From Halostella limicola (lineage in GTDB: Archaea; Halobacteriota; Halobacteria; Halobacteriales; Natronoarchaeaceae): 64,000 nucleotides of DNA. Where the stretch lies: contig NZ_RCDI01000003.1 of NCBI RefSeq assembly GCF_003675875.1, positions 558,001 to 622,000 on the forward strand, in the 5' to 3' direction. This document shows, piece after piece, positions 8,320 to 28,742 of the stretch (position 1 is its first letter; every line of letters begins with the position of its first letter). The notes below the pieces were generated by a model. That model made no database searches. It saw only the letters and a list, made by a program, of their open reading frames with translations, and was not told the DNA's origin. The position numbers were made by a program, and so were the translations under genes.

Positions 8320-9069
8320 TCACTCGACGACTGCGACCAGCGGGTCCTCTGCGGTCATCCGCGCGAGGACGACACGGGGGGCGTCGCAGCGGGCCAGCGT
8401 CTCGGCCGCGACCTCCCTCGCGACGGCCTCCAGTTCCCCGTCGTCGACCTTGTTCACGAGCGGGACCGCCGTCGCACCGTCGGGGACGCCCTTCATACCG
8501 CCGCGCTCGCTGGCGAGCACCGCGGCGACGGCCTCGGGCGTGACCTCGTCGCCGACGTCGATGCCGGCGATCGCGGCGACGCGCTCCGGTCGATGGACGA
8601 GGTCGTCCGTCAGCGGCTCCCCGACGACGTGCGCGCTGGCGACCGGAACGACGACGTCGCTGGCCGGCGGGACCTGCGGCTCGCGGTCGTTCGGTGCCTT
8701 GAGGTCTCTGGTGCGCGCGCCGTCGGCCTTCACGAGCACCGCATCCGCGACTCCCGGGGCGGCGATATCGTCGACGACCGCCGCGTCGTACCCGCGGTAG
8801 CGGTCCTCGCGCTCCCGCTCGGGGACGAGCCCCAGCGGCCAGTCGTCGGCCTCGCGGAGCGCGCTCGCGGGGTCGTCGGTCACCGTCACCGCGGCGACGT
8901 GCCGGTCGAAGATCGGGATCCGGACCGTCGCCGTCACGACGGCGCGGTCGATCCGCCCCGCGAGCGCGTACAGCGTCGTCTTCTTCCCGCCCGCGCCGAC
9001 GACGCTGACGAGGGTGCTCCCGTCGCCCGGCGCGGCGCCGTCCGCGGCGAGCGCGCTCACGATGTCCAT
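8320..9069 (-). CDS. yqeC: YqeC-like protein (selenium/molybdenum hydroxylase accessory family)
   Basis: The 249-residue protein carries a P-loop-like VSVVGAGGKKTTLYALA near residue 25, then VLVKADGARTRDLKAP, PPASDVVVPVASA and PLVNKVDDGE, all landmarks of the YqeC family. Members occur near molybdenum hydroxylases and MobA-type genes and are thought to act in maturation of a labile selenium or molybdenum cofactor; the biochemical role is not settled. Here it sits 2 kb from mobA and the aldehyde oxidoreductase homologue. No selenocysteine machinery is seen in the window, so a molybdenum-related role is the better inference. Confidence 0.75.
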   Translation of the reverse strand: MDIVSALAADGAAPGDGSTLVSVVGAGGKKTTLYALAGRIDRAVVTATVRIPIFDRHVAAVTVTDDPASALREADDWPLGLVPEREREDRYRGYDAAVVDDIAAPGVADAVLVKADGARTRDLKAPNDREPQVPPASDVVVPVASAHVVGEPLTDDLVHRPERVAAIAGIDVGDEVTPEAVAAVLASERGGMKGVPDGATAVPLVNKVDDGELEAVAREVAAETLARCDAPRVVLARMTAEDPLVAVVE

Positions 9070-9107: not shown

Positions 9108-10139
9108 CTACTGCCGCCGGCGCTTGACGATGCCGACGTTGTTCGCGACGCGCTCGGTCATGTCGCGGAACGCCTGTCCCGTCTCGCTGTCCCCGTCGAG
9201 GACGACGGGCTCGCCCTCGTCGCCGCCGTGGCGGACCTCCGGGTCCAGCGGGATGGACCCGAGGAACGGCATCTGATGCTCCTCGGCGAAGCGCTCGCCT
9301 CCGCCCTCGCCGAAGATGGGGTGGTCGCTCCCGCAGTCGGGACACCTGAACGTCGCCATGTTCTCGGCGATGCCGAGCACGGGGGTGTCGTGCTTGCCGA
9401 ACATCTCCAGGCCCTTGCGCGCGTCGTCGAGCGCGACCTCCTGGGGCGTCGTGACGATGACCGACCCCGCGATGGGAACGCTCTGGAGCAGGGTAAGCTG
9501 CGTGTCGCCGGTGCCCGGCGGCAGGTCGACGACCATGTAGTCGAGGTGCCCCCAGTCGACGTCCTCCCAGAGCTGGGTGAGGATCTTGTGGACCATCGGG
9601 CCGCGCCAGATGACGGGGTCGTCCTCGCCGACGAGGAAGGCCATGCTCATCAGCTTCATGCCGAACTGCTCGGGCGGGATGATCGTCTCGTCGGCGGTGG
9701 CCTGTGGCACCTCCTCGGCGTCGACCATCCGCGGGACGTTCGGCCCGTAGACGTCCGCGTCGAACAGGCCGACGCGCGCGCCCATCTGCGAGAGGCCGGC
9801 GGCGAGGTTGACGGCGACGGTGCTCTTGCCGACGCCGCCTTTCCCGCTCGCGACGGCGATGATGTTCTCGACGTTCGGGAGCACCTGCTCGTCGGCCGAG
9901 AGACCGCTGTCGACCTCCGCGGACAGGTCGGTCTCCAGCCCGGCGTCCGAGAGCACCTCGCGGACGCGCTCGGCGATCGCCGTCTCGTTCGGCGAGTACG
10001 GCGCGCCGAGCGCGAGCGAGACCCGCGCGGTCCCGTCCTCGACGGTCACGTCGTTGACGAGGTTCAGCGAAACGATGTCGTCTCCGAGGTCAGGGTCCTC
10101 GACGTCGCGCAGCAGGTCGAGAACGTCGTCTTCGTCCAT
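9108..10139 (-). CDS. Mrp/NBP35-family iron-sulfur carrier ATPase
   Basis: The protein is a cytoplasmic P-loop ATPase that carries and delivers [4Fe-4S] clusters. Its 343 residues comprise an N-terminal MIP18/DUF59 domain (about 1-85, VEDPDLGDDIVSLNLV) and a Mrp domain with the deviant Walker A GKGGVGKST, switch-like DADVYGPNVPRM, Walker B VVDLPPGTGD, and a cluster-binding CPDC in FRCPDCGSDHP. Iron-sulfur enzymes abound nearby (formate dehydrogenase, MoaA, HdrA-like), but such carriers are general housekeeping proteins. It lies downstream of mobA on the same strand, separated by about 130 bases containing a gene remnant. Confidence 0.92.
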   Translation of the reverse strand: MDEDDVLDLLRDVEDPDLGDDIVSLNLVNDVTVEDGTARVSLALGAPYSPNETAIAERVREVLSDAGLETDLSAEVDSGLSADEQVLPNVENIIAVASGKGGVGKSTVAVNLAAGLSQMGARVGLFDADVYGPNVPRMVDAEEVPQATADETIIPPEQFGMKLMSMAFLVGEDDPVIWRGPMVHKILTQLWEDVDWGHLDYMVVDLPPGTGDTQLTLLQSVPIAGSVIVTTPQEVALDDARKGLEMFGKHDTPVLGIAENMATFRCPDCGSDHPIFGEGGGERFAEEHQMPFLGSIPLDPEVRHGGDEGEPVVLDGDSETGQAFRDMTERVANNVGIVKRRRQ

Positions 10140-10181: not shown

Positions 10182-10284
10182 TTACTCCAGGTCGGTCCCC
10201 GAATCGACCGTCTCCGCCCGCGCGAGGCCGTCCCGCACCTCGTCGATCCGCACGGTGACGTGCTCGCCCCAGTTACTCTCCAGA
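10182..10284 (-). pseudogene. Orphan coding remnant, TRAM-like tail
   Basis: Between mobA and the Mrp gene the minus strand reads WGEHVTVRIDEVRDGLAR, continuing AETVDSGTDLE and a stop at 10182. This has the look of a real protein end and resembles the final strands of a TRAM domain (GDxVxVxIxxVRxxxAxAxV). The frame has no usable ATG: only two internal GTGs occur, and upstream it overlaps the mobA 3' end in another frame. I read it as the 3' stump of a deleted gene. The TRAM assignment is a pattern judgement only. Confidence 0.35.
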
Positions 10285-10944
10285 CGATGCCTCGAAGCGC
10301 TGGGCGGCGGCCTCGAACTCCTCGTACGTGTTCAGGTTCTCGAAGGTGTCGAGCGTCCCGACCTCCCGGATCTCGTCCTCGTCCACGACGACGTAGTCGA
10401 GGTCGAACAGGGGTGCGACGATCTTGCGCTCGCCCGCCGCGAGCGCCTCCTCGCAGGCGTCGGCCATCGCGTCCGCGCGGTAGACGGCCTGCGTCGTCTG
10501 GAACCACTGGTCGTCCAGTTGCGGAACGGCGGCGTCGCGCCCCGCCGCCCGGTCGAACAGGTAGTCGACGACGGCGGGCTCGACGAACGGCATGTCGCAG
10601 GCGACGACGGCGGCGTACTCCGCCTCCGCCGCCCGCAGGCCCGTCCTGATGCCCGCCACCGGCCCCTCGTCGGGGTCGGGGTCCTCGGCGAACGTCACGT
10701 CGCGGTCGTACTCCGCCATCGCCGCCCGGATCGCGTCGACCTGGTCGGCGCGGCAGTTGACGACGAGCTCGTCGACCACGCCGGCGATCCCGTCCGCGAC
10801 CCGCCGGATCATCGGCGTCCCGGCGAGGTCGGCGACCGCCTTGTCCTCGTCGCCGAACCGCGTCGACCGCCCGCCAGCGACGATCACGCCGGCCCGGCGT
10901 CCTGTACCTTCCGCTGACTTTCCCGCTGAGCTACGATCACTCAT
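10273..10944 (-). CDS. mobA: Molybdenum cofactor guanylyltransferase MobA
   Basis: MobA attaches GMP to molybdopterin, making the guanine dinucleotide form used by formate dehydrogenase-type enzymes. The 223-residue protein has the nucleotidyltransferase signature VIVAGGRSTRFGDEDKAV near the N-terminus, then VVNCRADQ, DEGPVAGIRTGL and VACDMPFVEP with the metal-binding Asp. The start at 10944 gives a short Ser/Gly-rich leader; a longer version from 10980 would overlap the divergent gene. Only 29 bases separate it from the oxidoreductase gene on the other strand, so the two must share a compact promoter region. Confidence 0.9.
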   Translation of the reverse strand: MSDRSSAGKSAEGTGRRAGVIVAGGRSTRFGDEDKAVADLAGTPMIRRVADGIAGVVDELVVNCRADQVDAIRAAMAEYDRDVTFAEDPDPDEGPVAGIRTGLRAAEAEYAAVVACDMPFVEPAVVDYLFDRAAGRDAAVPQLDDQWFQTTQAVYRADAMADACEEALAAGERKIVAPLFDLDYVVVDEDEIREVGTLDTFENLNTYEEFEAAAQRFEASSGE

Positions 10945-10973
10945 TAGACGTTCCGTTCCGTTTTTGCTGATAG

Positions 10974-12746
10974 ATGTCACACCGCGCGCCTGCAGGGCTT
11001 CTCCGTGTCGACCTTTCGGACGGCACCGTTAAGAGCGAACGGGTCCCCGAGCGCTGGCGCCGCGACTACGTCGGCGGGAAGGGACTCGGCGCGCGCTACC
11101 TGTACGAGGAGCTCGACCCGGGGGCGGACCCGCTCGGGCCCGAGAACGTCCTGCTGTTCATGCACGGCCCGCTCTCGGCCGCGCTGCCGGGCGAGCCCCG
11201 GTACGCGGCCGTCACGAAGTCGCCGCTGACCGGGACCTTCCTCGACTCCTACAGCGGCGGCGAGTTCGCCGAGCGGCTCCGCGGGGCGCTCGGCGACCAC
11301 CTCGGCTTGCTCGTCACCGGCCGCGCCGAGGAACCGGTTCGGATCGAGATCGAGGACGGCGAGGCGACCGTCGAGCCGACCGATTCGTGGGGCGAGGACG
11401 CCGTGGCGACGTGCGAGGCCCATCCGGACGCCGCGGTGGCCTGCGTCGGCCCCGCCGGCGAGAACGCCGTCGAGTACGCGACCATCGCCTCGGACGAGGC
11501 GAACCACCACGCCGGCCGCGGCGGGGCGGGCGCGGTCATGGGAGCGAAGCGGCTCAAGGCGGTCGTCGTCCGCGGCGACCCGCCGGACGGGGACGACTTC
11601 GACGACCTGCGGGACCGCGCCGCGGCGGCCTACGGCGACGCCGAGGTCGGCCGCTGGCAGCGCGCCAGCGGTACGGTCGAGTCCGCGGAGTTCGCGAACG
11701 AGGTCGGCGTCCTCTCGACCCGCGGCTGGCAAGAGAGCGGGTTCGAGGGGACCGACGCCATCGGCGTCGAGGCGGTCCGCGACGCCGCCACGGGCCGGGA
11801 GAACGAGGACGCGGACGTGCCGGGCGGGTTCCGCGTCGACACCGACGACGGCGAGTACGTCCCCCGCGGGGCGAGCGCGATGTCGCTCGGCGCGGGGCTG
11901 GGCGTCGACGAGTTCGACGCCGTGGCGGCGCTCGGCGAGACCTGCGACCGCCTCGGCGTCGACGTCATCAGCGCCGGGAGCTCGGTGGCGTGGGCCGTCC
12001 GCGCGAGCGAGACCGGCGCGATAGACCGCGAGTTCTCGTTCGGCGACGCCGAGAGCGCCCGGACGCTCATCGAGGAGATCGCCGGCCGCGAGACGCCGCT
12101 GGGCGACGCGCTGGCCGACGGCGTCGACGCCGCGGCCGAGCGCTTCGGCGGGGGCGACCTCGTGCCGACCGTGAAGGCGATGGAGCTACCGGGGTACGAC
12201 CCCCGCGGTTCCCGCGCGATGGCGCTCGCGTACGCCACCAGCGACCGCGGCGGCTGTCACCGCCGCGCCCGCCCCGTCGAGGAGGAGGTGTTCGGCGACT
12301 GGTCGGACGGCGACCGCGTCCGCGCCGTGATCGCCGAGCAGGACCGCCGGTCGCTGGTCTGGAGCCTCGTCGGCGACGACTTCGGCGGCGAGGTGCTCGA
12401 CGACCTGGCCGCGGAGTGGTTCGCCGCCGTCGGGCAGGACCGCACGCCGGAGGGCCTCCGGACGGCCGGCGAGCGGATCTGGACGCTGGTCCGCCTGTTC
12501 AACGTCCGCGAGGGGTTCGACCGCGCGGACGACGAGCTGCCGCCCGTGCTGACCGAGTCGGTTGACGACGCCGACGGCATCGACCCGACGGCGTTCGACG
12601 ACCTCCTGCGGCGCTACTACGCGGCCCGCAGCTGGGACCGCCGCGGCCGCCCGACGAGGGCGCTGTGTGACAGGCTCGGACTGCTCGACACCGTGGACGA
12701 CGATACCCCCGTCGCGGACGCTCCCGCGACTCCCCCAGAGCAATGA
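10974..12746 (+). CDS. Aldehyde ferredoxin oxidoreductase homologue lacking cluster cysteines
   Basis: The 590-residue protein is clearly of the AOR family: N-terminal LLRVDLSDGTVKSERVPE, YVGGKGLGARYL, the cofactor segments GRGGAGAVMGAKRLKAVVV and GYDPRGSRAMALAYATSDRG. Known members oxidise aldehydes using tungsten or molybdenum bis-pterin plus one [4Fe-4S] cluster bound by CxxCxxxC and a distant Cys. Here the first motif region reads VPRGASAMSLGAGLG and the last ligand region reads RRSLVWSLVGDDFGG, so all four ligands are absent. Only five scattered Cys remain. It overlaps the following gene by ATGA and is divergent from mobA. A catalytic role without the cluster is uncertain. Confidence 0.85.
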   Translation: MSHRAPAGLLRVDLSDGTVKSERVPERWRRDYVGGKGLGARYLYEELDPGADPLGPENVLLFMHGPLSAALPGEPRYAAVTKSPLTGTFLDSYSGGEFAERLRGALGDHLGLLVTGRAEEPVRIEIEDGEATVEPTDSWGEDAVATCEAHPDAAVACVGPAGENAVEYATIASDEANHHAGRGGAGAVMGAKRLKAVVVRGDPPDGDDFDDLRDRAAAAYGDAEVGRWQRASGTVESAEFANEVGVLSTRGWQESGFEGTDAIGVEAVRDAATGRENEDADVPGGFRVDTDDGEYVPRGASAMSLGAGLGVDEFDAVAALGETCDRLGVDVISAGSSVAWAVRASETGAIDREFSFGDAESARTLIEEIAGRETPLGDALADGVDAAAERFGGGDLVPTVKAMELPGYDPRGSRAMALAYATSDRGGCHRRARPVEEEVFGDWSDGDRVRAVIAEQDRRSLVWSLVGDDFGGEVLDDLAAEWFAAVGQDRTPEGLRTAGERIWTLVRLFNVREGFDRADDELPPVLTESVDDADGIDPTAFDDLLRRYYAARSWDRRGRPTRALCDRLGLLDTVDDDTPVADAPATPPEQ

Positions 12747-13579
12747 CCGAACGGATCGATCTGGACGATGTCGACGCCGGCGAACCGGACGACGGAGACG
12801 AGTCGAACGAGGGCGACTGGATCTGGCGCGACGAGGGCGACGATGACGCCCCCGTCTCGACGCAGTCGGCGGCGGACGCGCCGGTCGGCCCCTCGTCTGC
12901 CGGAGACGGCGCTGCCGACGACGGTAGCCCGTCATCGGACGAGGAGGATGCCCCGACGCCGTCGAAGCCCGCGTCGAGTGAAGGCGGGTCGGCCGATGCC
13001 TCCAACGCCGCCGACGCGAGCGGCGAGGCCCGGGTCCCCCACGTCCCGCGTGAATCGCACGGGAGTCCAGCGGGGATCCCCAAGGAGACCGGCGGGGCCG
13101 GCGCGGGATCCGGCTCGGGCGGTCAGGGGACCGAGGCGTCGAACGACGCGGGCGGCACTGGCGCCGAGCCGCCGGAATCGGCGGCGAGCGGCCCTCACGG
13201 GGGCGGCGTCGACGAGATGGCGACGGCGTTCACCTACGAGGCGCTGAAACGGCTCTCGAACCCCGCGGCCGCCGTCGCCGACGCGAAGCGCTGGTCGGAC
13301 TGGATCGGTATCGTGGGGGACGTGCCCGCCCACGTCATCGGCACGTTCCAGCGCGAGCACGGCATCGACGCCGACTTCTTCAACGGGACCGGCACCGGGC
13401 CCGGCGAGCGGCTGGCCGGGATCGACGAACACTCGATGTTCTACTCCGAACGCATGGTCGTCGTCGGCGTCGCGGGCGAGGAGCCCATCGCCGAGGAAGC
13501 CGGCTGGGAGTTCGTCCCACTCGCCGACGCCGCGGCGAACGCCGGGTGGGACGCGGAGGCAGGTTCCGAAAGGGACTGA
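12743..13579 (+). CDS. Hypothetical protein with disordered N-terminus, coupled to the AOR homologue
   Basis: The first 145 residues of this 278-residue protein are low-complexity (Asp, Ser, Ala, Gly-rich) and probably disordered. The C-terminal 125 residues form a compact domain (FTYEALKRLSNPAAAVADAK, then WSDWIGIVGDVPAHVIGTF and EEAGWEFVPLADAAANAGW) that I associate tentatively with a haloarchaeal DUF (DUF7124-like). Its ATG overlaps the oxidoreductase TGA, indicating translational coupling and suggesting a partner or assembly role. No metal-binding motif is visible. Confidence 0.7.
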   Translation: MTERIDLDDVDAGEPDDGDESNEGDWIWRDEGDDDAPVSTQSAADAPVGPSSAGDGAADDGSPSSDEEDAPTPSKPASSEGGSADASNAADASGEARVPHVPRESHGSPAGIPKETGGAGAGSGSGGQGTEASNDAGGTGAEPPESAASGPHGGGVDEMATAFTYEALKRLSNPAAAVADAKRWSDWIGIVGDVPAHVIGTFQREHGIDADFFNGTGTGPGERLAGIDEHSMFYSERMVVVGVAGEEPIAEEAGWEFVPLADAAANAGWDAEAGSERD

Positions 13580-14660: not shown

Positions 14661-15893
14661 TCAGAACCCGGGCAGCGCCCGGTACTCCCGCGTCGGGACG
14701 TAGAAGTTCGCCCGCGATCGGACGGTGATAAACTTCAGGATGCCGTTGTTGTCCGTGTCGCGGACGCGCTCGCTCTCGTCGCGGACGTACCAGCCGTTCA
14801 TCGCCTTGCGCGTCTTCTCGAAGTCGTCGAGCGACGCCTGAAAGGAGAGGAAGTGGACGCCCGCCCGGCCGCCGTCGACGGTGTTGAAGTCTCGCCGGAG
14901 GACGATCGGTTCCCCGTCCTCCCGGACGCGGGCGACCTTCTCGTGGTGGCCGACGACGTCGTGCTCGCTCGCGTGCTCCGGGACCGCGTCGCTGAACGGG
15001 ACGGTGTCGGTGAACCCCTCGACGTCGTCGGCGTCGAACTCGGGGGAGAACATCCGGGCGACGCGCTCCTCCTCGTCGAACGCGTCGAACCACCGCGTGA
15101 GCGACTGCGTGAGGTGGCTCAGGTGCATGGTCGTCCCCCCGCCGTAGGGACCGTCGTCGATGGTGACACGGTCCTCGCTGGCCTGCGTGCCGCGCAGGCC
15201 GGAGCGAAAGCCCATGAACATCCGGTCGCCCTCGGACAGCGGGGGATCCTCCGGGATCCCCTCCGCGCCGGTGTGTTCGACCGGCAGCCCCTCGCCCACG
15301 AACCCCGTCCGGCGCCCGACGGTCGAGAACGCGTCGCCGAGCTTGTCGTCGACCGGCACGTCGCCGATCGAGTCGCGGTTCCCGACCATGGCGTTCTCCG
15401 CGGCCCCGAGGTGGGAGGGAACGTCGCTCGACAGCACGAGCGCGGCGTCGATGTCGAGCAGGTCGGGGTCGTCCGTCCGCGAGAGTACCTCGGGGCGGCG
15501 GACCGGGACCGCGTCGAGCGCGCCGACCCGCTCGAAGTAGCCCGGCCCCCAGGCGAGGAGGTGGAAGAGCCCGCTCGGCGACCAGTCGAAGGCCGCTTCC
15601 AGCGCCCGCATCGCTCGCTCTATCGTCCGCCCAGTCTCGACCGACGGCGACGCCTCCAGGTCGAGCAGCAGGACGCGGTGGTGGCGGGGAAGCAGCGGGT
15701 TCCCGTGGTCGTCCTGTCTCACGTACGCCGACTGGGCGTGCTGTCGGTCGGGGAGGACGTCCGCGTGCGGGTTCGGGTCGAGGTCCAGATCCGTCTCGGA
15801 CCGGGAGGCCGCGAGCGGGTTGGAACACCCCGCGAGGCCGACGGCCCCGGCGATGCCGGCGAGCTTGCCGAGGAGGGCGCGGCGCCGTTCCAT
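14661..15893 (-). CDS. Tat-exported lipoprotein, DyP-peroxidase-like
   Basis: The 410-residue protein begins with a twin-arginine signal (ERRRALLGKLAG) and lipobox VGLAGC, predicting export and lipid anchoring. The body resembles the DyP-type heme peroxidase fold: MFMGFRSGLRGTQAS, HLSHLTQSLTRWFD with candidate proximal His residues, and the C-terminal VLRRDFNTVDGGRAGVHF followed by LSFQASLDDFEKTR, typical of DyP proteins. The canonical GxxDG motif is not obvious, so catalysis is uncertain and the protein may be a divergent relative (DUF7405-like). The start chosen is directly at the signal peptide. TATA-like TTATTAG lies about 31-37 bases upstream, suggesting a leaderless transcript. Confidence 0.65.
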   Translation of the reverse strand: MERRRALLGKLAGIAGAVGLAGCSNPLAASRSETDLDLDPNPHADVLPDRQHAQSAYVRQDDHGNPLLPRHHRVLLLDLEASPSVETGRTIERAMRALEAAFDWSPSGLFHLLAWGPGYFERVGALDAVPVRRPEVLSRTDDPDLLDIDAALVLSSDVPSHLGAAENAMVGNRDSIGDVPVDDKLGDAFSTVGRRTGFVGEGLPVEHTGAEGIPEDPPLSEGDRMFMGFRSGLRGTQASEDRVTIDDGPYGGGTTMHLSHLTQSLTRWFDAFDEEERVARMFSPEFDADDVEGFTDTVPFSDAVPEHASEHDVVGHHEKVARVREDGEPIVLRRDFNTVDGGRAGVHFLSFQASLDDFEKTRKAMNGWYVRDESERVRDTDNNGILKFITVRSRANFYVPTREYRALPGF

Positions 15894-15920
15894 GTGGATC
15901 GGTATCGTGTACCGTGTTCC

Positions 15921-17722: not shown

Positions 17723-17887
17723 TCACTCCAGTTCCGCCAGCCGCTTCAGCGACTCCTGTTTCGTCTCGCGGTCGACGGGCTAGGGCGTACCGTCCTTGCC
17801 GCCGTGAGCGTAGGCGTACTTCGCCGGGTCCTCGCGCGAGCTTTCGGCGTCGAAATTCGGCACGGCCTTGCGACCGACCGTATCAGG
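17723..17887 (-). pseudogene. DUF763 C-terminal remnant with amber codon and internal deletion
   Basis: Minus-strand translation gives EDPAKYAYAHGGKDGTP, a TAG stop (17780-17782), then PVDRETKQESLKRLAELE and the final stop at 17723. This matches, from memory, the end of DUF763 proteins, where GGKDGxPYPVDRxTY is typical, so the TAG replaces the expected Tyr. The usual helical segment after PVDRET also seems missing. The upstream end abuts the TorD-like gene, and the rest of DUF763 (over 300 residues) is absent. The remnant indicates a past deletion here. Confidence 0.7.
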
Positions 17888-18509
17888 AGACCATCTGCGC
17901 CGCGAGTTCGTCCTCGAACGCGACGAGGCCCTCGGCGATGCCGGCGGCGGCGAGATAGAGGTCCTCGTCGGTCTCCTCGCGCACGTCCGCGGCGAAGTCG
18001 TCGATCCACCTGAGGAGGTGCTCGTCGAGGAACACCCGCTCGTAACCGAACGCCTCGACCTCGCCGTTGCGCTGTCGCCGGACGAGGTTCCGGAGGAAGC
18101 CCAGTTCGACCGCGACGAAGTCGTTCTCCTCCGGGTAGTCCTCCGGCGGCTCCCACCCGACGGCGGCGTAGCTCTCCTCGACCTCCGCGAGCCCCTCGCC
18201 CACGAACTTCGTGTCGTCCCGGTAGTGGGTCTCGTGGGGGACGACGAGGGGGCGCGGCCCGACGAACAGGCGGGTGTACTCGCCCGCGAGGTCCTCCCGC
18301 AGGGCGTCGGCCGGGCGGTCCGCGGTCCGCTCCGCGAACCGTTCCAGCGCGTCGAACCCCTCGTCGAGCGCGGGGTTGACCTCGTCGTCGGGGACGGTCA
18401 CCTCCTCGGCGAGGTCGGCGATGAACGCCTCCGAGGGAACGTCGCCGAGGGCGTCGATCGCGAAGTCGAGCAGCTCGATCCGTGCGTCGTAGAGTGCGTC
18501 TGTGTCCAT
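17883..18509 (-). CDS. TorD/DmsD-like molybdoenzyme chaperone
   Basis: The 208-residue all-helical protein carries EYTRLFVGPRPLVVPHETHY, a hallmark of the TorD family, and later NDFVAVELGFLRNLVRRQ and VFLDEHLLRWIDDFAADV. Family members bind the Tat signal and apoprotein of molybdopterin oxidoreductases and guide cofactor insertion. The formate dehydrogenase catalytic subunit encoded nearby has a Tat signal and is the obvious client. The gene follows the HdrA-like gene by two bases, so they are cotranscribed. Confidence 0.85.
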   Translation of the reverse strand: MDTDALYDARIELLDFAIDALGDVPSEAFIADLAEEVTVPDDEVNPALDEGFDALERFAERTADRPADALREDLAGEYTRLFVGPRPLVVPHETHYRDDTKFVGEGLAEVEESYAAVGWEPPEDYPEENDFVAVELGFLRNLVRRQRNGEVEAFGYERVFLDEHLLRWIDDFAADVREETDEDLYLAAAGIAEGLVAFEDELAAQMVS

Positions 18510-18511
18510 GG

Positions 18512-20638
18512 TCAGGCGCCGTCGAACAGCAGCTTGGGTCGGCAGTCGTTGCAGTACTCGAACACGCTATGCTCGGCGTTCGGCGCGAGGCCCGCCACCT
18601 GGTCGCCGACCTCGGACTCCACCTTCTCGGCCGACTCGACGCTGGTGAACTCCCGGCCGCAGCGGACACAGGCGAGCATCTCGCCCTCGTAGACGGTGGT
18701 CCAGCCGGGGTCGAGGTCGACGAGGCCGTCGCGGTTCTCGGGCAGCAACGAGAGGTCGAGGCCGTCGCGCATCGTGATCGCCGACTCGGGACAGCCGTCC
18801 TCGCAGAGGCCGCAGTTCACGCAGCGCTCGTGGTCGAACTGCAGGTCGCTGCCCTCCCGCCGGATGGCGTCGGTCGGACAGAGGTTCGTGCAGGTCGGCG
18901 TCAGCGCGCAGGCGTCGTCAGAGACCTCCATCCGGCCGAAGTTCTTCAGGCCGCGGATCACGTCGCGCTCGGGGTCGACGTGGTCGAGGATCGCCCGCAC
19001 GCTCTCGAGCGCCCACGAGTGGTTGTCGAACGGGGGCGTCGCCCGCCCGTCGTCGACGTCGCCCGACGCCTCGTAGCCGCCCGCCGGCACCGGCGACTCG
19101 CCGACCCCGTCGACGAACGACGACAGCGAGTCGACGAACTCGTCGGGGTCGGTCGGGTCGGGCGCGAGGAACGTCATCCGCTCGCCGAGGCCGAGGTCCC
19201 GGCAGGCGGCGTTGACCCGCTCGACGAGTTCGGCCTTCGGGTCCGGCCCCGAATGCAGGCAGCTCCCGCCGCAGCCGACGACCGCGACGCCGTCAGCGCC
19301 CGCTGCCAGCGCGTGCAGCGCGTGCGCCTCGCCGACCGTGTCCGTGCAGTTCACGCGCACCGGGAGGACCGGCGGATACTCCAGGTCCCGGCCGGCGGCC
19401 GAGAGGCGGCCGTACTCCCTGAGCGCCTCCTCGGCGGACTCCGAGCAGACGAACGCGACCACCTGCTCGCCGATGGGGTCGCCGCCGCCGAGCAGCCCCC
19501 CGGTGTCGGGGGCCTCGACCAGCGTCTCCACCTCGCGGGCGATGCGCTCGTTCGAGGGGTCCCGCAGCTTGACCGCGCCGGTCGGACACGAACTCGTGCA
19601 CGCGCCGCAGTCCTGACAGGCCACCGGATCGAACTCGACCTCGTCGATCCGCGGGCGCGCGACCGCGCCGTGGGGGCACGCCTCGACGCACTCGTTGCAC
19701 CCGCGCTGGCTCGACGCGCCCGACGCGCAGACGTCCATGTCGATGTCGAGGTGATCGGGCTTCTCCACGCCGCCGAGCAGGCGCTCGACGGCGGCGACCG
19801 TGCCGGCGTCGACCGGCCCCGTGTAGAAGCCGATGCGGCCGCCACGGTCCTTCGATCGGGCGGCCGGATAGATCACCTGGTCGGCCTCGACGGTCCGCTC
19901 GACGCCGCCCATCTCGATGGCGTCCGTCGGACAGCAGTCCGTCCACTCGCCGTCGGGCGCCTCCGGCGCGATGTCGACGGGTTTGCGGGAGACGAGCCCG
20001 TCCGGCCCCTCGCGGACGCACTCCATGCAGGAGATGCAGTCCTCGGTGACGCGCGCTTCCAGGGTGAGCTCGAACCCGCCGTACTCGCCGCCGACGTGCG
20101 TGACGCGCCCCCGCTCGACGTTCACGTCGTCGAGGTCGACGTCCGCGCCGGCGTACTCCCCGCCGTTGGCGATCAGCGTCACGTCGGCGTCCCCGGCCAG
20201 CGCGCTCGCCGTCTCCGCGTCGCCGACGACGGCGACCCGGTCGCCGGCCTCCCGTGACACGCTCCGGGAGATCGGTTCCTCCTGCCGGCCGGCGTACCTG
20301 GCGTTCAGCATCCGGCTGGTCTTCTCGGTCGCGGCCGCCTCGTCGTGAACCCATCCCGCGCCTTCGCGGTGGTCGACGAACGCGACCGCCTCGGGGTGGA
20401 GTCCCTCCTCCTCCGCGAGCCGGCGGAACCGCTCCTTGCAGCCGTCGTCGACGGCCGTGACGAGCAGCTCGTCGAGGTCGTACTCGTCTATCACGTGCGC
20501 CACTTTCCGCAGGCCGTCGTCGCCGCAGAGCCGGCTCGAACTCGCCGCGACGTCGACGCCCTTTACCCCCTCGCGTGCACCTTCCAGGTCCACGCGACAC
20601 GAGTCACCGCAGGAACAGACGAAGGCCCCCGTATTCAT
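18512..20638 (-). CDS. HdrA-like polyferredoxin fused to an MvhD domain
   Basis: This 708-residue cytoplasmic iron-sulfur protein starts with the HdrA N-terminal module (VCSCGDSCRVDLEG, SRLCGDDGL). The large FAD domain of HdrA is reduced to a short Rossmann-like stretch (RVAVVGDAETASALAG). Ferredoxin motifs follow from residue 200 (CISCMEC, CNECVEACP, CQDCGACTSSCP). About residues 398-490 form an MvhD/FrhD-like domain (VVAFVCSES, RVNCTDT, GCGGSCLHSGPDPK). Two more clusters (CTNLCP, CVNCGLCEDGCP) and a terminal CVRC/CNDC pair end the protein. Placement beside torD and divergent from fdhA suggests electron transfer with formate dehydrogenase. The partner and direction of electron flow are inference. 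Confidence 0.82.
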   Translation of the reverse strand: MNTGAFVCSCGDSCRVDLEGAREGVKGVDVAASSSRLCGDDGLRKVAHVIDEYDLDELLVTAVDDGCKERFRRLAEEEGLHPEAVAFVDHREGAGWVHDEAAATEKTSRMLNARYAGRQEEPISRSVSREAGDRVAVVGDAETASALAGDADVTLIANGGEYAGADVDLDDVNVERGRVTHVGGEYGGFELTLEARVTEDCISCMECVREGPDGLVSRKPVDIAPEAPDGEWTDCCPTDAIEMGGVERTVEADQVIYPAARSKDRGGRIGFYTGPVDAGTVAAVERLLGGVEKPDHLDIDMDVCASGASSQRGCNECVEACPHGAVARPRIDEVEFDPVACQDCGACTSSCPTGAVKLRDPSNERIAREVETLVEAPDTGGLLGGGDPIGEQVVAFVCSESAEEALREYGRLSAAGRDLEYPPVLPVRVNCTDTVGEAHALHALAAGADGVAVVGCGGSCLHSGPDPKAELVERVNAACRDLGLGERMTFLAPDPTDPDEFVDSLSSFVDGVGESPVPAGGYEASGDVDDGRATPPFDNHSWALESVRAILDHVDPERDVIRGLKNFGRMEVSDDACALTPTCTNLCPTDAIRREGSDLQFDHERCVNCGLCEDGCPESAITMRDGLDLSLLPENRDGLVDLDPGWTTVYEGEMLACVRCGREFTSVESAEKVESEVGDQVAGLAPNAEHSVFEYCNDCRPKLLFDGA

Positions 20639-20737
20639 TGCCCACCATGGTAGGGCGCGGCGAGGGAAGTGTGTTAGCACTGTTCGGCACAGGGACAGGT
20701 ATCTCATCGGGAATCAACGTCCGCGATCGATAACTAA

Positions 20738-20829: not shown

Positions 20830-20862
20830 ACTCTTTGCGTTTCCCGTGGATCATCTTACGTC

Positions 20863-20919
20863 ATGCGCACAGATACCAAGACGATCGGTACGGCGACCGA
20901 ACGGAGTGTCGGCCGGTGA
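20863..20919 (+). CDS. Possible 18-codon upstream ORF before fdhA
   Basis: ATG 20863 opens a short frame (MRTDTKTIGTATERSVGR) whose TGA (20917-20919) overlaps the proposed GTG start of fdhA as GTGA. The fdhA start has no Shine-Dalgarno site, so ribosomes finishing this leader could initiate fdhA. No homology is claimed; it may be a coupling device or chance. Confidence 0.35.
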   Translation: MRTDTKTIGTATERSVGR

Positions 20920-23900
20920 GCGGCGAACCGGTAACGCTGGACCTCGACAGGCGCTCGTTCATGAAGGCGAGCGCGCTGGCGGGCGCCGTCGCGATCGGGG
21001 GCGCGACGACGGGCCAGGTCCTCGGGCAGGAGGAAGAGGACGGCGGCGACGAGGGAGAGACGCCCGACGGCGCGCTCGGGAACACCGAGACGGTGAACTC
21101 CGTCTGCAACTACTGTGCCGTCGGCTGCGGGTTCAAGGGCGAGCGCAAGGGGAACGCCTTCGTCGGGCAGGAGCCCTGGTTCGAGAACCCCATCAACAAC
21201 GGCTCGCTCTGCGCGAAGGGCGCGAGCATCTACGAGACGGAGCACTCGCCCAAGCGCGTCAAACACCCGCTACAGCGGGTCGACGGCGAGTGGCGAAAGA
21301 TCACCTGGGAGCAAGCGTACAACACGATCACCGAGGAGATCGAGCGGATCTGGAACGAGTACGGCCGGGACAGCATCTACTGGCTCGGCAGCGCGCACCA
21401 CTCCAACGAGGAGGCGTACGCGCTCCGGAAGCTCATCTCCTTTATGGGGACGAACAACGTCGACCACCAAGCCCGCATCTGTCACTCCCCGACCGTCGCC
21501 GGCCTCGCGAACACGTGGGGCTACGGGGCGATGACCAACACGATCAACGACTACCGCAACTACGACCTGGACATCATCATCGGGCAGAACCCGGCGGAGG
21601 CCCACCCCATCGCGATGCAGCACATCCTGGAAGGCCAGAAGCGCGGGGGGACGATGATCGTCGTCGAACCGCGGTTCACAAAGACCGCGGCGCACGCCGA
21701 CCAGTTCTACCGACTGCGGTCGGGGACCGACACGGCGCTGATGCTGGGGCTGATCAAGTACCTCCTCGACAACGACGCGCTCGACATGAACCACATCGAA
21801 CAGCGCGTCAACGGGTGGCCCGACGTCGAGGCCGAGGTGGACAACTACGACCTCGAAACCGTCTCCGACATCACTTGGCTCAGCGAGGAGGCGATCCAGG
21901 AGATCGGCGACCTCATCATCGACAACATGCCCAACGTCCAGATCGAGTGGGCGATGGGCGGTACCCAGCACACCAACGGCACGCAGAACATCCGCTCACA
22001 CGCCATCACCGCGCTGGCGACCGGCGGTATCGGCCGCGCAGGCGGGGGCCTGCAGGTGATGCGCGGGCACGCGAACATCCAGGGGACGACCGACCTCGGC
22101 CCGAACGCCCACATCCTGCCGGGGTACTACTCGGTCACCGACGCGTCGACGTGGCGGTACTGGGCGCACGTCTGGTCCCAGAGCCCGTACACCGACGGCG
22201 AGATCTCCTACGAGGACATGTACGAGAAGTTCGACCACATGCCGGAGGACCTCTGGGAGGAGCAGGCCGGCGGGGGCGACTCGATCATCGGCGACCCCGA
22301 GAACCAGGAGGACGTCACCTCGATGATGTTCCAGAGCGGGCTCACCGTCTCGCGGTGGTACGAGTCCGCGCTGGACCAGGAGGACCGGCTGCTGGAGTCG
22401 AAGCTCTACCAGCCCGAGAAGACGAAGATGGCCGTGTTCTGGGGGCACTCGGCCAACTCGCTGACCGAGATGGACCGGATGAAGCAGGCGATGGAGGAAC
22501 TCGACACGCTCGTCGTCGTCGACATGTTCCCGTCGGTGGCCTCCGTGATGGCCGAGCGCGACGACGGCGTCATCTTCCTGCCCTGCGCCAGCCCGTACGA
22601 GCATGCCGGCAGCGTCACCAACTCCCACCGCTCCGTCCAGTGGAAGGAGCCGATCCGACCGCCGGGACACAACACCCGGCCGGACCTCCAGATCATCCAG
22701 CAGCTCGCCGACCGCATGGGCTTCGGCGAGCACTTCAACTGGGGGGCGGGACCGGAACTGTACAACGGCACGGAGTCCTACGAGGAGGTACTCAGGGAGA
22801 TCAACCTCGGCGTGCGCACCATCGGGTACCAGATGTCGCCCGAGCGCCTGCAGTCCCAGCAGGAGTACGACGAGGTGTTCAGCGAGGAGGACCTGGAGGC
22901 GAAGGCCGGGCCGCACGAGGGCGAGTACTGGCAGCTGCCGTGGCCCTGCTGGGGCGAGAACCCCGAGGGCGACGTCCCCGACCACCCCGGGACCCCGATC
23001 ATCTGGCGGGATCGGATGGACCCGCGCGAGGGCGGTCACGACTTCCGCGCCCGGTGGGGTTCGGAGGCGCCGGGCCCCGACGAGTGGGAGGACATCCGCG
23101 GTCAACGGGGCTATCCGAACGAGGAGTACCCGCTGCAGGAGACGTACGACCAGCAGGGCGACGACGGGCTGGACATGCTCCGCGGCCCGTACGAACCCGA
23201 GTGGTGGGACAGCGAGGTCCGGGGCGTCCCGCAGTATCCCGGATTCGCGAACACGATCCCGCGCGACCCCACGAACTCCAGCCACATGGCGGGGCCGGTC
23301 CGGTACGCGTTGAACCCCGACCGGTCGGCGTACGAGGCGGCGCGGGACTTCCAGGACATCTTCCTCGGCAACATCGACCCGTCCGAGTACGAGCAGTACA
23401 CCAACTCCCAGCCCGACCCGCCGACCGGGCGCGGCCGGGCGCGGGGCGTGGCGTGGAACTTCTACGACCCGGTGCCGATCCACCGCGAACCGGTCGAGAG
23501 CCCGCGCCAGGACCTGATCGACGAGTGGCCCGCGTTCGGCGCGCAGACGAACCTCTACCGCCTCGACCAGAACAACCAGGCCGTCCAGCAGGACGCGACC
23601 CAGCGGGCCCACGAGCAGGGGTTCGACCTCGTGATGACGACGGGGCGGCAGGTCGAGCACCAGGGCGGCGGCGCGGAGACGCGGAACAACGTCTTCACCG
23701 CCGACCTCCAGCCGCACATGTACGCGGAGATACACCCTGACGTCGCCGAGGAGATCGGCGTCGACGGCGGCGACCTCGTCGTCGTCTCCACCACCAACCG
23801 GGGGTCCGTCCTCGTGAAAGCGCGCGTCACCTACCGCGTGGACCAACGGGAGGTGTTCCTGCCGTACCACTGGGGCGGCGTGTTCAAGGGGAAGGACCTC

Positions 23901-24161
23901 TCCGACCGCTACCCCGACGGCCTCGAACCGCTCGCGATCGGCGACAGCGTCAACATCATCACCGCGCCGGGGTACGACTCGGAGACCCAGATGCAGGAGA
24001 CGAAACCCGCGCTGGTGAAGGTGAACCAGGCGACGGAGGACCTGCTGAACGAACTGAACATGGACACCCACCTGCTCAACGAGGGGTTCCCGCAGGACGA
24101 GAGCGGCCTCGGCCAGCAGAAGACGTACGACGTCCGGGACCGCCCGTCGGATAGCCACTGA
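20916..24161 (+). CDS. fdhA: Formate dehydrogenase catalytic subunit (Cys-type, Tat-exported)
   Basis: This molybdopterin oxidoreductase should oxidise formate to CO2 outside the membrane. The 1081-residue protein has a Tat signal (DLDRRSFMKASALAG), a [4Fe-4S] site from residue 64 (CNYCAVGC) completed by SLCAKG, and an active-site Cys189-His in ARICHSPTVAGL where bacterial homologues often have selenocysteine. The molybdopterin-dinucleotide domain occupies the C-terminal 150 residues (TTGRQVEHQGGG, YHWGGVFKGKDL). I chose GTG 20916 because it places the Tat motif as usual; a TTG at 20835 is less likely. Three electron-transfer genes follow tightly. Confidence 0.9.
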   Translation: MSGEPVTLDLDRRSFMKASALAGAVAIGGATTGQVLGQEEEDGGDEGETPDGALGNTETVNSVCNYCAVGCGFKGERKGNAFVGQEPWFENPINNGSLCAKGASIYETEHSPKRVKHPLQRVDGEWRKITWEQAYNTITEEIERIWNEYGRDSIYWLGSAHHSNEEAYALRKLISFMGTNNVDHQARICHSPTVAGLANTWGYGAMTNTINDYRNYDLDIIIGQNPAEAHPIAMQHILEGQKRGGTMIVVEPRFTKTAAHADQFYRLRSGTDTALMLGLIKYLLDNDALDMNHIEQRVNGWPDVEAEVDNYDLETVSDITWLSEEAIQEIGDLIIDNMPNVQIEWAMGGTQHTNGTQNIRSHAITALATGGIGRAGGGLQVMRGHANIQGTTDLGPNAHILPGYYSVTDASTWRYWAHVWSQSPYTDGEISYEDMYEKFDHMPEDLWEEQAGGGDSIIGDPENQEDVTSMMFQSGLTVSRWYESALDQEDRLLESKLYQPEKTKMAVFWGHSANSLTEMDRMKQAMEELDTLVVVDMFPSVASVMAERDDGVIFLPCASPYEHAGSVTNSHRSVQWKEPIRPPGHNTRPDLQIIQQLADRMGFGEHFNWGAGPELYNGTESYEEVLREINLGVRTIGYQMSPERLQSQQEYDEVFSEEDLEAKAGPHEGEYWQLPWPCWGENPEGDVPDHPGTPIIWRDRMDPREGGHDFRARWGSEAPGPDEWEDIRGQRGYPNEEYPLQETYDQQGDDGLDMLRGPYEPEWWDSEVRGVPQYPGFANTIPRDPTNSSHMAGPVRYALNPDRSAYEAARDFQDIFLGNIDPSEYEQYTNSQPDPPTGRGRARGVAWNFYDPVPIHREPVESPRQDLIDEWPAFGAQTNLYRLDQNNQAVQQDATQRAHEQGFDLVMTTGRQVEHQGGGAETRNNVFTADLQPHMYAEIHPDVAEEIGVDGGDLVVVSTTNRGSVLVKARVTYRVDQREVFLPYHWGGVFKGKDLSDRYPDGLEPLAIGDSVNIITAPGYDSETQMQETKPALVKVNQATEDLLNELNMDTHLLNEGFPQDESGLGQQKTYDVRDRPSDSH

Positions 24162-24163: not shown

Positions 24164-24856
24164 ATGTCATCTAACCAAGAATCCCAGGACCGCGAGGTGA
24201 TGCGACAGAGCGTCTTCAGCACCGGCGAAGGGACGCGTATCTTCCCGGACGTGGAGGCCTGTATCGACTGCGGCGGCTGCTACGTCGCGTGCAAGCGCAC
24301 GTGGGACGTGCCCCGCGACGACCAGCGGATCTCGATCTCGACGATGCTGGAGGGGCAGATGGCACAGCCGCCCGAGAACAACCCCAACAGCGGGACGGCG
24401 ATGAGCGAGGGGCAGGACCCGGGCGAGACGAGCATCCCGATGCAGTGTTACCACTGCGACAACGCGCCCTGCGTCTCCGTCTGTCCCACCGACTCGCTGT
24501 TCAAGAACCCGGACAACGAGTTCGTCGAGGTGCGCGACGACCTCTGTATCGGCTGCCAGTACTGCCTCTCGGGGTGTCCGTTCGGCGCGCCGCAGTTCCC
24601 CGAGTCCGACGACGGCGGCGCGCAGATCGCAGGGAACGGCGGCGTCATGGACAAGTGCACCATGTGCGAGGAGCGCCAGCTCGAGACGGGGAAGGGGCCG
24701 GCCTGCGCCGAGGAGTGCGCCACCGACGCCATCCTCGTCGGGACGGCCGACCAGATCTCGGAGGAACTGGACCGCCGCGGCGAGGCCTCGTTCTTCAACG
24801 AGGCGGCCCTGGAGATCATCTTCGGCGAGGAAGACGCCAGGGTGTTCGACCGATGA
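24164..24856 (+). CDS. fdhB: Formate dehydrogenase iron-sulfur subunit
   Basis: The 230-residue protein carries four groups of ferredoxin cysteines (CIDCGGCYVACKR, CYHCDNAPCVSVCP, CIGCQYCLSGCP, CTMCEERQ with ECATDAI), the pattern of four [4Fe-4S] clusters in FdnH/DmsB-type subunits. It should pass electrons from FdhA to the membrane cytochrome. It has no signal and no C-terminal transmembrane anchor, unlike E. coli FdnH. It probably exits with FdhA by hitchhiking. Two bases separate it from fdhA and its stop overlaps the next start. Confidence 0.92.
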   Translation: MSSNQESQDREVMRQSVFSTGEGTRIFPDVEACIDCGGCYVACKRTWDVPRDDQRISISTMLEGQMAQPPENNPNSGTAMSEGQDPGETSIPMQCYHCDNAPCVSVCPTDSLFKNPDNEFVEVRDDLCIGCQYCLSGCPFGAPQFPESDDGGAQIAGNGGVMDKCTMCEERQLETGKGPACAEECATDAILVGTADQISEELDRRGEASFFNEAALEIIFGEEDARVFDR

Positions 24857-25443
24857 GCGGCGCGGGCGACGACCGGAACGGCCGGGACGAGGACGCCGAC
24901 CGCCCGCCCGACGATGAGCGAGTCGCGACCGACGATCCGTACGACGAGCGCGAGCCGGTACGCGAGACGCCGGAAGAGTCCCGGGAGCGACAGAGCCACT
25001 ATACGGACCCCGACAGCAAGCTCACCGACCGACTCGCCGTCCTCATCAGCGCCGTCGTCGGGCTGGTCGTGACGGGGCTCGCCTACTGGTGGGCGCAGGG
25101 GTTCGCCGTGTTCACGGAGAACCTGTACCGCGTCCAGCCGACGATCGAGGGTGGCGGCATCGGTTCGGACTGGAACGCGGGCAACACCGACCCGGCGCTC
25201 GACGCGCTGATCGCGCTCATCCACGCGGTCGACGTCATCGCGGGCGTCGGGATCCTGGTGATGGTGTTCCTCCACTGGACGGCGTTCCGACGGCTCGCCG
25301 CGCAGATGCGCCAGCCCGGGGAGCGCCGCTCGGACGCGGTCGCCGCGGACGGTGGTCAGGCGTCGTCTGCCGACGCCGGACCGCGGTCGACCGGATCCGA
25401 CGGCGGAGCGACCGACGCCGATAGCGGAGGTGAGGCCGGATGA
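24853..25443 (+). CDS. Formate-dehydrogenase-associated membrane protein
   Basis: The 196-residue protein has a charged N-terminus (about 55 residues), a hydrophobic helix (LAVLISAVVGLVVTGLAYWW), an extracytoplasmic loop (QPTIEGGGIGSDWNAGN), a second helix (VIAGVGILVMVFLHWTAF) and a disordered acidic tail. ATGA overlaps tie it to fdhB upstream and the cytochrome gene downstream. It has no heme or cluster motif that I can name. Since FdhB lacks its usual membrane helix, this protein may anchor the complex; that is inference. Confidence 0.7.
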   Translation: MSGAGDDRNGRDEDADRPPDDERVATDDPYDEREPVRETPEESRERQSHYTDPDSKLTDRLAVLISAVVGLVVTGLAYWWAQGFAVFTENLYRVQPTIEGGGIGSDWNAGNTDPALDALIALIHAVDVIAGVGILVMVFLHWTAFRRLAAQMRQPGERRSDAVAADGGQASSADAGPRSTGSDGGATDADSGGEAG

Positions 25444-26447
25444 CCAGCCTCGACCACGGCAAGTTCACGCGGGTCACCACCGTCTTTCACTCGCTGCTGG
25501 CGCTCGACGTGTTCATGCTGTTTTTCAGCGGCTACGCCATCATGTTCAACGACGAGCTCTGGTGGCTGGTCGAGGCGCTGGGCGGGTCCATGGGGGTGAT
25601 CGCCGTCCACCGGATCGCGGGCCTCGGCCTGATCACGCTGACCGTGTTCTGGATGACGCTGCTGATCATCACACCCGGCGGGCGGGACAACTTCGGCGCC
25701 GTCCTGCCCGGTCGGGACGACATCGAGGCGGCGATCCAGGACGTGAAGTTCGCGCTGGGCTACGCCGACGAGCGCCACCCCAACGCCCGCCAGTTCGCCG
25801 GATACAAGGCCGACGAGGTGCCCCTGCTGTCCTACGTCGGCAAGGGGGTCGTCTGGATCTTCGCGGTGGAGCTGACGCTCTTGATGATCACGGGGCTGCT
25901 CATCTGGAGCAAGACCGGCGTCATCAGCCTCTTCACGACGAAGGCCTCCGCGATGGCGTTCGTCGCGTTCCACGGCTTTCTGGGGATCGTCATGCTGATG
26001 GGCGTGATGTTCCACATCTTCGAGCACGGCGCGCACCCCGCCTTCTACCCGGTCGAGATGAAGGCGTTCCTGCCGAAGGACGTCACGCCGGAGTACCACG
26101 CCGAGGACGAGGACCACGACACGACGGGGATCGAGAACCTCGAACTCTCCCCGACGTGGAACTGGGCCGCGAACCTGCTCGGCCTGCTGGTGGTCGTCGG
26201 CATCGTCAGCGTGCTGGTCGGCAGCATCTTCGACGAGACGTACCCGATCCCGCGGGAACTCGCCGTGGGCGGCGGCCCGACGAACCTGCTGCTCACGATC
26301 GGCATCAACGTCGGCATCCTCGTGCTGTTCATCGGCCTCGTGCTGTCGATGTACGGCAACGTCATGCGGCGCCGCTACGAGCGCCAACTGGCCGAGGAGC
26401 GCCGCGCGACCGCCGCGGACGGGAGCGGCGAGACGAGCGACGACTGA
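25440..26447 (+). CDS. fdhC: Formate dehydrogenase cytochrome b subunit
   Basis: This integral membrane di-heme cytochrome should deliver formate electrons to the quinone pool. The 335-residue protein shows the FdnI/FdoI pattern: His17 (VFHSLLALD) in the first helix, IAVHRIAGLGL, AFHGFLGIVML and MFHIFEHGAHP as candidate heme ligands, and helices at about residues 15-35, 50-77, 137-160, 172-190, 238-258 and 282-302. It is longer than E. coli FdnI (about 217 residues), with an added C-terminal pair of helices. It overlaps the upstream gene by ATGA and ends the operon. Confidence 0.88.
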   Translation: MTSLDHGKFTRVTTVFHSLLALDVFMLFFSGYAIMFNDELWWLVEALGGSMGVIAVHRIAGLGLITLTVFWMTLLIITPGGRDNFGAVLPGRDDIEAAIQDVKFALGYADERHPNARQFAGYKADEVPLLSYVGKGVVWIFAVELTLLMITGLLIWSKTGVISLFTTKASAMAFVAFHGFLGIVMLMGVMFHIFEHGAHPAFYPVEMKAFLPKDVTPEYHAEDEDHDTTGIENLELSPTWNWAANLLGLLVVVGIVSVLVGSIFDETYPIPRELAVGGGPTNLLLTIGINVGILVLFIGLVLSMYGNVMRRRYERQLAEERRATAADGSGETSDD

Positions 26448-27713: not shown

Positions 27714-28742
27714 ATGCTCGAGGACGGGTTCGGTCGGGAAGTGACGGGCGTCCGCGTGTCGTTGACCGACCGGTGCAACTTCGACTGCGTCTACTGCCAC
27801 AACGAGGGGCTGGGGGACACCCGCGGCCCGATGGACCCGCAGGACGACGAGATGACCGCCGACGACGTCGTCCGCTTTCTGGAGGTCGCCGCCGAGTTCG
27901 ACGTCGACTCCGTGAAGTTCACCGGCGGCGAGCCGATGCTCCGGCAGGACCTAGAGGAGATCATCCGCCGCACGCCCGACGAGATGGAGGTGTCGATGAC
28001 GACCAACGGCACCTTCCTGCCCGGCCGCGCCGAGGACCTGGTGGACGCGGGCCTCGAACGCGTCAACGTCTCGCAGGACGCGCTCGACCCGGACGACTTC
28101 GCCGAGGTGACCAAAAGCGGCGCGTACGAGAAGGTGCTGGAGGGCGTCGACGCCGCGCTCGACGCCGGCCTCGACCCCGTGAAGCTCAACATGGTCGTGT
28201 TCGAGCACACCGCCGGCTACGTGCCGGAGATGGTCGAGCACGTCGCCGAGAACGACGGCCTCCAGCTCCAGCTCATCGAGTACATGCCCGAACTCACCGG
28301 TCGGCCCGAGTGGAACATCGACATCCAGCGCGTCCACGACTGGCTGGCGGAGCAGGCCGCCGAGATAGAGCGCCGCGAGATGCACGGCCGCCGCCGCTAC
28401 TGGGTCGAGGGCGACGCCGACGCCGGCGAGGCGGGGGCCGGCGAGGCCGCGGCGACCGACGGGGGGCGAAACGCCGGCCGCGGCATGGTCGAGATCGTCG
28501 ACCCCGTCGAGAACGCGGACTTCTGCGCGAACTGCCACCGCGTGCGAGTCACGCACGAAGGATACCTCAAGGGGTGTCTCAACCGCAACGACGACCTCCG
28601 CTCGATGGGCGAGATGACCAAGCCCGAGATCCGCGAGGCGTTCCGGGAGACCGTCGAGAACCGCGTGCCCTACTACGGCGAGTACATGGTCAAAGACGAT
28701 GACGGCGACTGGGTCGTCAACGACGAGTACATCGGCGCGTAG
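27714..28742 (+). CDS. moaA: GTP 3',8-cyclase MoaA
   Basis: MoaA is the radical SAM enzyme that starts molybdopterin synthesis by rearranging GTP. The 342-residue protein has the SAM cluster at Cys21, Cys25 and Cys28 (CNFDCVYC), the GGEP motif ([11 protein letters not shown]), and the second, GTP-binding cluster in [20 protein letters not shown] 25-residue Gly/Ala/Glu-rich insertion (about residues 235-258) precedes that cluster and is probably a disordered loop. The usual C-terminal double Gly is not evident here. It sits near fdhA, torD and mobA, consistent with supplying the pterin cofactor. Confidence 0.93.

Follow-up and report, generated by a model that had tools for sequence, protein, structure and literature searches.

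A haloarchaeal AOR-family protein without [4Fe-4S] ligands, linked to formate dehydrogenase and molybdenum cofactor genes

What is left for a protein of the tungsten aldehyde oxidoreductase family to do once the ligands of its iron-sulfur cluster have gone? The question is raised by a gene at 10974..12746 (+) in a 64,000-nucleotide stretch of the Halostella limicola genome (contig NZ_RCDI01000003.1, positions 558,001 to 622,000; the whole stretch is called the window here). Its 590-residue product is matched over the whole length by the Pfam families AFOR_N (PF02730, 6.8e-63) and AFOR_C (PF01314, 8.5e-85), has the tungsten aldehyde oxidoreductases as its best solved relatives and, judged by homology, belongs to the AFOR superfamily; we refer to it as the cluster-less AFOR. 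We tentatively favour a reading in which it is a non-enzymatic, or at any rate non-AOR, descendant that holds a bis-pterin Mo/W cofactor during the maturation of formate dehydrogenase (FDH)-type enzymes.

Ligand columns were read from a 130-sequence alignment in the numbering of P. furiosus AOR (PfAOR), with 64 haloarchaeal proteins of ≥ 55% identity examined as orthologues. The columns of C288, C291 and C295 are deleted or replaced in a shortened loop, and that of C494 holds Asp468. The segment equivalent to the CxxCxxxC loop and the GPEYE motif (residues 275-300, ...VPGGFRVDTDDGEYVPRGA; 11796..11873, +) is free of Cys, and PfAOR DSAGLC (Asp489, Cys494) is represented by WSLVGDDF (residues 463-470; 12360..12383, +), whose W463, D468, D469 and F470 are invariant in 64/64 orthologues. 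Of the five Cys residues in the protein (147, 157, 324, 428 and 565), none occupies the place of a cluster ligand. The four [4Fe-4S] cysteines are likewise absent from every one of the 64 orthologues, none of which has a Cys in the equivalent of PfAOR 280-312, but are kept in 57/57 other AFORs and 9/9 proteins of a sister clade. A Cys at PfAOR position 490 (20/64 orthologues) is not conserved and is no substitute for C494.

An earlier model-made note on this DNA (the sequence-only reading) had already claimed that all four ligands are lost, and the alignment bears this out. It had allowed that the cysteines might be merely displaced, for which the Cys-free region in all orthologues leaves no room, or be hidden by a frameshift, which is excluded because the frame is unbroken, the loss is shared by the orthologues and dN/dS (the ratio of non-synonymous to synonymous substitution rates) is 0.13-0.22 between close orthologues, a sign of purifying selection. 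The same ratio and 138 near-invariant positions in the orthologue alignment rule out a pseudogene and indicate a working protein. That we are dealing with an ordinary AOR, its cysteines displaced or masked or its gene decaying, is hardly credible: the alignment refutes it, the cluster-less proteins are monophyletic, and on the other side we found nothing except one decayed relative (L096), of which a 169-residue fragment is left.

Is the cofactor site intact? The AlphaFold model, predicted with high confidence (pLDDT 94.9, pTM 0.95), can be superposed on 9mqx, 1b25 and 1aor with Z 48.7-49.8 and a root mean square deviation (rmsd) of 1.9-2.1 Å over 566-574 residues (1aor: Z 48.7, rmsd 2.0 over 566 residues). 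By model and superposition the protein thus has the AOR three-dimensional fold; the earlier claim that the fold landmarks are kept agrees with a model ∼ 2 Å from PfAOR/FOR and with two full-length AFOR domains. In the structure from A. aromaticum, the equivalents of Arg76, Gly95, Arg182, Asp343, Asp489 and Cys494 bind the pterins, cluster and cofactor are 3.5 Å apart, and the equivalents of Glu313 and His448 are the proposed catalytic residues (PMC10413684). The accessible text of a 2026 classification also proposes Glu313 as catalytic and gives Thr243, Glu313, Tyr427 and His448 as the aldehyde-oxidising quartet (PMC13328260). In the cluster-less AFORs the RGGxGAVMG segment is kept, and the equivalents of Thr243 (T234 in the H. 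limicola protein), His448 (H429), Asp343 (D330), Gly95, Arg186 and Lys420 are present in 64/64 orthologues; the Tyr427 column (Y408) holds 58 Tyr and 6 Phe, and Arg76 is kept in 58/64. Glu311-Tyr312-Glu313 of GPEYE has become Arg-Gly-Ala/Gly, Glu313 being Ala or Gly in 64/64 (Ala300 in H. limicola), a loss that the sequence-only reading did not mention. Further replacements found in all members are Arg182 by His (H178) and, specific to the clade like the change in GPEYE, Asp489 by Trp (W463) and Cys494 by Asp (D468). The quartet is therefore incomplete, with Thr243, Tyr427 and His448 present, and of the six cofactor contacts only Arg76, Gly95 and Asp343 remain.

Since Arg182, Asp489 and Cys494 are now His, Trp and Asp, the contacts to the cofactor are partly rewritten; the earlier statement that the pterin-binding segments are kept holds for RGGxGAVMG, Gly95 and Asp343 and fails for these three. 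Taken together, model and alignment suggest that the frame of the cofactor site still stands, with the electron exit and the acid residue gone. Because the cluster ligands, Glu313 and half of the cofactor contacts fail, we would not file the protein as a tungsten oxidoreductase enzyme. The sequence-only reading had offered a different electron acceptor, a non-redox protein or dependence on a coupled neighbour. The last two point in the right direction; the first is the less likely one, since the cluster cysteines were not lost alone but together with Glu313 and the contacts Asp489 and Cys494.

The replacement residues W463, D468 and H178 are invariant in every member, which suggests a new surface or use, and they would suit a protein that has lost the cofactor altogether and serves as a structural or regulatory partner of FDH or of the MobA step. 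We consider this quite unlikely, as G95, D343, H448 and RGGxGAVMG are conserved no less strictly than in active AFORs; a protein that binds nothing would not be expected to keep them so.

The Class I tungsten oxidoreductases (P. furiosus AOR/FOR; H. volcanii WOR83, PDB 9q1t) share with the cluster-less AFOR the whole fold with both AFOR domains, RGGxGAVMG, Asp343, Thr243, His448 and a single-subunit gene. They differ from it in having the [4Fe-4S] ligands, Glu313, Asp489 and Cys494, and the cluster-less AFOR also in its FDH and cofactor-gene neighbours. In its accessible text the 2026 classification, with 92 clades, takes a large subunit that bears the cluster as the mark of Class I and describes the ligands of cluster and cofactor as varying very little among large subunits (PMC13328260). 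We found no mention of a cluster-less clade in that text or elsewhere in the open-licence PMC literature consulted.

An orthologue is present in ∼ 220 of 391 haloarchaeal genomes by a score threshold, which alone decides the matter for the ∼ 10 genomes with weaker best scores. In the tree the cluster-less proteins form one group (SH-aLRT 100) that pairs with a four-Cys haloarchaeal sister clade (99; L098, L101-L108), their nearest kin at 40-44% identity. Both clades have Y93, H182-H183, three Trp residues and the loss of Asp489. The sister clade differs in carrying Tyr or Phe at Asp489 and in still having all four cysteines and Glu313, and its L098 locus lies among sugar/amine catabolism genes, not FDH or MobA genes. 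Because Tyr93, His182-His183 and the Asp489 loss are shared, part of the change preceded the loss of the cysteines. The sister clade already has His for Arg182 and is the natural comparison for the cluster-less one. Sequences with intermediate E-values, considered as transitional forms, turned out either to be orthologues that carry long inserts or to belong to the four-Cys sister clade.

With what, then, does the cluster-less AFOR work? Neighbours were counted within ± 7 kb at 80 cluster-less loci and, as a control, at 20 loci of Cys-bearing haloarchaeal AFORs, including both others of the H. limicola genome. An FDH-type alpha subunit occurs in 45/80 loci (22 cytoplasmic FdhA and 23 FdhN-like of the twin-arginine translocation (TAT) type, split by score), MobA, YqeC or SAMP1/MoaD in 29/80 and TorD- or HdrA-like proteins in 33/80. 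One or more FDH or cofactor genes are found in 63/80; of the 17 loci with none, 6 have a gene of one-carbon (C1) metabolism. FDH, MobA, YqeC and TorD-like genes were found at 0/20 of the four-Cys control loci (Fisher p = 1.4e-6 for FDH, 5e-11 for any). In 15 loci the cofactor genes adjoin the cluster-less AFOR although there is no FDH within 7 kb, and a wider view of one locus (G007) shows FdhA, YqeC and formate-tetrahydrofolate (THF) ligase within 23 kb. CHxxTV, the Cys-His signature of FDH, is present in 43/43 readable linked FDH-type subunits. The gene context leads away from aldehyde oxidation. Fusions of AFOR with MobA, DUF7124, YqeC, TorD-like or FDH parts were looked for and none was found.

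A non-redox enzyme working on a bis-pterin metal site, such as a hydratase, hydrolase or isomerase, would account for the residues: loss of the cluster removes electron transfer only, and the fold and the cavity residues H448 and T243 persist. Acetylene hydratase, a member of another family, is an example of such non-redox use. By this analogy the idea is conceivable, but the linked pathways suggest no substrate and the link to MobA, YqeC and FDH would be left unexplained; we rate it as improbable.

The association also holds between genomes. FdhA (TIGR01591) is encoded in 206/220 genomes with a cluster-less AFOR versus 78/171 without (odds ratio 17.5), and among the 14 AFOR-positive, FdhA-negative genomes a TAT-type FDH is found in 7, to which linkage adds one more (G074, locus L218). 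MobA is present in 40/40 genomes with versus 31/40 without; for the nitrate reductase NasA the association is much weaker (23/40 versus 14/40, p = 0.07). FdhN-like subunits occur in at least 34 genomes, 33 of them AFOR-positive, a count of little weight as two candidates were scored per genome and the window's own copy was missed.

Elsewhere, FdhD is needed for formate dehydrogenase activity; it binds bis-molybdopterin guanine dinucleotide (bis-MGD) and transfers sulfur. No FdhD was detected in any of the 391 haloarchaeal genomes, and a looser search of 30 of them at E ≤ 1 gave noise only, while 8/14 control genomes had matches. This agrees with a 2023 review of molybdoenzyme maturation, which notes that halobacteria often encode formate dehydrogenases with fdhD absent and regards as an open question how, and by which proteins, the cofactor is inserted and sulfurated (PMC10609526). 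The FdhD models (PF02634 / TIGR00129) do not match the cluster-less AFOR, which is hit by AFOR models only and is not an FdhD member. What the two would have in common, as a proposed analogy only, is FDH linkage and cofactor handling; they differ in that their sequences are unrelated, in that the cluster-less AFOR has no conserved CxxC-type sulfur relay, and in that FdhD acts on bis-MGD after MobA, whereas the AFOR cradle fits bis-molybdopterin (bis-MPT) before MobA.

We return to the cofactor-holding reading, which we prefer because the cradle is kept, electrons can hardly pass, the neighbours are MobA and FDH and the lineage lacks FdhD; an electron route is doubtful because all four ligands are absent in 64/64. 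A descendant of a tungsten aldehyde oxidoreductase would have given up AOR work, losing the electron wire and the acid residue and keeping the cofactor cradle. It may hold Mo- or W-bis-pterin, the family's known cofactor form, and pass it on during the maturation of FDH-type enzymes, with MobA (bis-MPT to bis-MGD) and YqeC as putative partners, joined in many loci by a TorD-like chaperone. We infer that a bis-pterin is bound at all, that it is carried rather than converted, and which enzyme receives it. The nucleotide-free bis-MPT is the cofactor of known AOR-family proteins. One of these, YdhV of E. coli, is regarded as a redox enzyme, and we know of no role for it in FDH maturation. YdhV, from a Mo organism, holds bis-Mo-MPT, a MobA substrate, which can be extracted and converted to bis-MGD by MobA in vitro (PMC9103625). 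It differs from the cluster-less AFOR in its cluster cysteines, assigned to it by family definition, not by alignment.

In a more specific version the cluster-less AFOR, as a tungsten enzyme that is now redox-dead and has been reused as a cofactor chaperone, would fill the place of the FdhD that haloarchaea lack; this is doubtful, as is its corollary that Mo/W-bis-pterin is prepared and delivered to formate dehydrogenases together with MobA, YqeC and TorD-like partners. For the published FdhD gap, confirmed here in 391 genomes, it does offer a candidate whose genetic linkage is clear and which is open to knock-out. If true, a metal enzyme that lost its electron wire would have found a second use in handling its old cofactor, and a wired sister clade would be there for comparison.

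Several observations weigh against cofactor holding. The chief difficulties are two: 78 genomes have FdhA but no cluster-less AFOR, so that not every haloarchaeal FDH needs one, and three cofactor contacts are gone. Binding is not assured, since Arg182, Asp489 and Cys494 are all contacts and all lost. The co-occurrence counts take genomes as they are, without phylogenetic correction. MobA and YqeC adjoin FdhA also in genomes without a cluster-less AFOR, so their links to it may be indirect. Three of the four quartet residues remain, which would fit a modified enzyme equally well, and genes of C1 metabolism lie near the cluster-less AFOR in 23/80 loci. The last two points lead to the main competing explanation, a C1/aldehyde enzyme with W/Mo-bis-pterin that oxidises a small carbonyl such as formaldehyde and hands electrons straight to a partner protein. 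H448, T243 and Tyr427 (58 Y, 6 F) are kept, formaldehyde-dehydrogenase-like genes lie near 14 loci, sarcosine/dimethylglycine dehydrogenase-like genes near 7 and formate-THF ligase near 3, and a pathway of this kind would continue with formate dehydrogenase. However, Glu313, proposed as catalytic (PMC10413684 and the accessible text of PMC13328260), is Ala or Gly throughout, Cys494, the electron path to the cluster 3.5 Å off in known AORs, is gone, and the commonest direct neighbours are cofactor-maturation genes rather than electron carriers. We regard this explanation as possible, though less so than cofactor holding.

Strict dependence of FdhA on the cluster-less AFOR is ruled out by the FdhA-only genomes. 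Many AFOR-less, FdhA-positive genomes (L220, L226, L229, L239, L246 and others) have a different FDH, with a split alpha subunit (about 757 plus 310-370 residues), a NuoF-like gene and a second molybdopterin oxidoreductase.

In the window itself the gene order is YqeC-Mrp-MobA-AFOR-DUF7124 ... TorD-HdrA-FDH(α,β,cyt b)-MoaA. Upstream lie the cofactor accessory protein YqeC (8320..9069, -), an Mrp/ApbC iron-sulfur carrier ATPase (9108..10139, -) and, divergent from the AFOR gene, a MobA-like molybdenum cofactor guanylyltransferase (10273..10980, -) with its likely start at an internal ATG near 10944, ∼ 30 bp from the AFOR start. The stretch from TorD to MoaA lies about 5 to 16 kb downstream of the AFOR gene, FDH starting 8 kb away. 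It comprises a TorD/NarJ-type chaperone (17883..18509, -; Nitrate_red_del, PF02613), an HdrA/FlpD-like ferredoxin protein (18512..20707, -), a TAT-exported FDH-type alpha subunit (20835..24161, +) with an RRSFMK twin-arginine motif and the Cys-His active-site signature RICHSPTVAG, an FDH beta-type iron-sulfur subunit (24164..24856, +; best NCBIfam match FDH3_beta, below cut-off), a cytochrome b561-type membrane subunit (25440..26447, +; PF01292) and the archaeal MoaA (GTP 3',8-cyclase; 27714..28742, +) for step one of pterin cofactor synthesis. The HdrA/FlpD-like multi-cluster protein is tied to TAT-type FDH in haloarchaea; HdrB/HdrC were not seen nearby, and it might act as a quinone-side or ferredoxin partner. 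In haloarchaea YqeC has the look of a cofactor gene linked to FDH; at five loci with no cluster-less AFOR close by (L225, L228, L233, L245, L255) MobA, in some with YqeC, adjoins FdhA.

The sequence-only reading had pointed to coupling with the downstream gene, a DUF7124 protein (12743..13579, +) with an acidic N-terminal tail and a HAD-like C-terminal domain; the domain model resembles HAD phosphatases weakly (Z 9.3 to 1te2). The coupling is real as far as the ATGA overlap and the presence of DUF7124 beside the AFOR gene in 30/80 loci go, but most loci are without it. DUF7124 is a core protein, found in 80/80 haloarchaeal genomes tested, with or without AFOR, and the AFOR-linked gene is a second, more diverged copy (DUF7124 positions: 12743-13579 and G000:C2:1126834-1127166). 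As only this second copy is linked, DUF7124 is ruled out as an AFOR-specific partner. The stronger association, unnoticed in the earlier note, is that with MobA, YqeC, TorD-like chaperones and formate dehydrogenases. In the decayed relative from Natrinema zhouii (L096:5926-7282) the AFOR remnant is followed by an intact DUF7124 gene, indicating a recent loss. Further downstream, a DUF7405 protein (14661-15986), which weakly matches Dyp-type peroxidases (E 0.0014), is found near AFOR in 12 loci.
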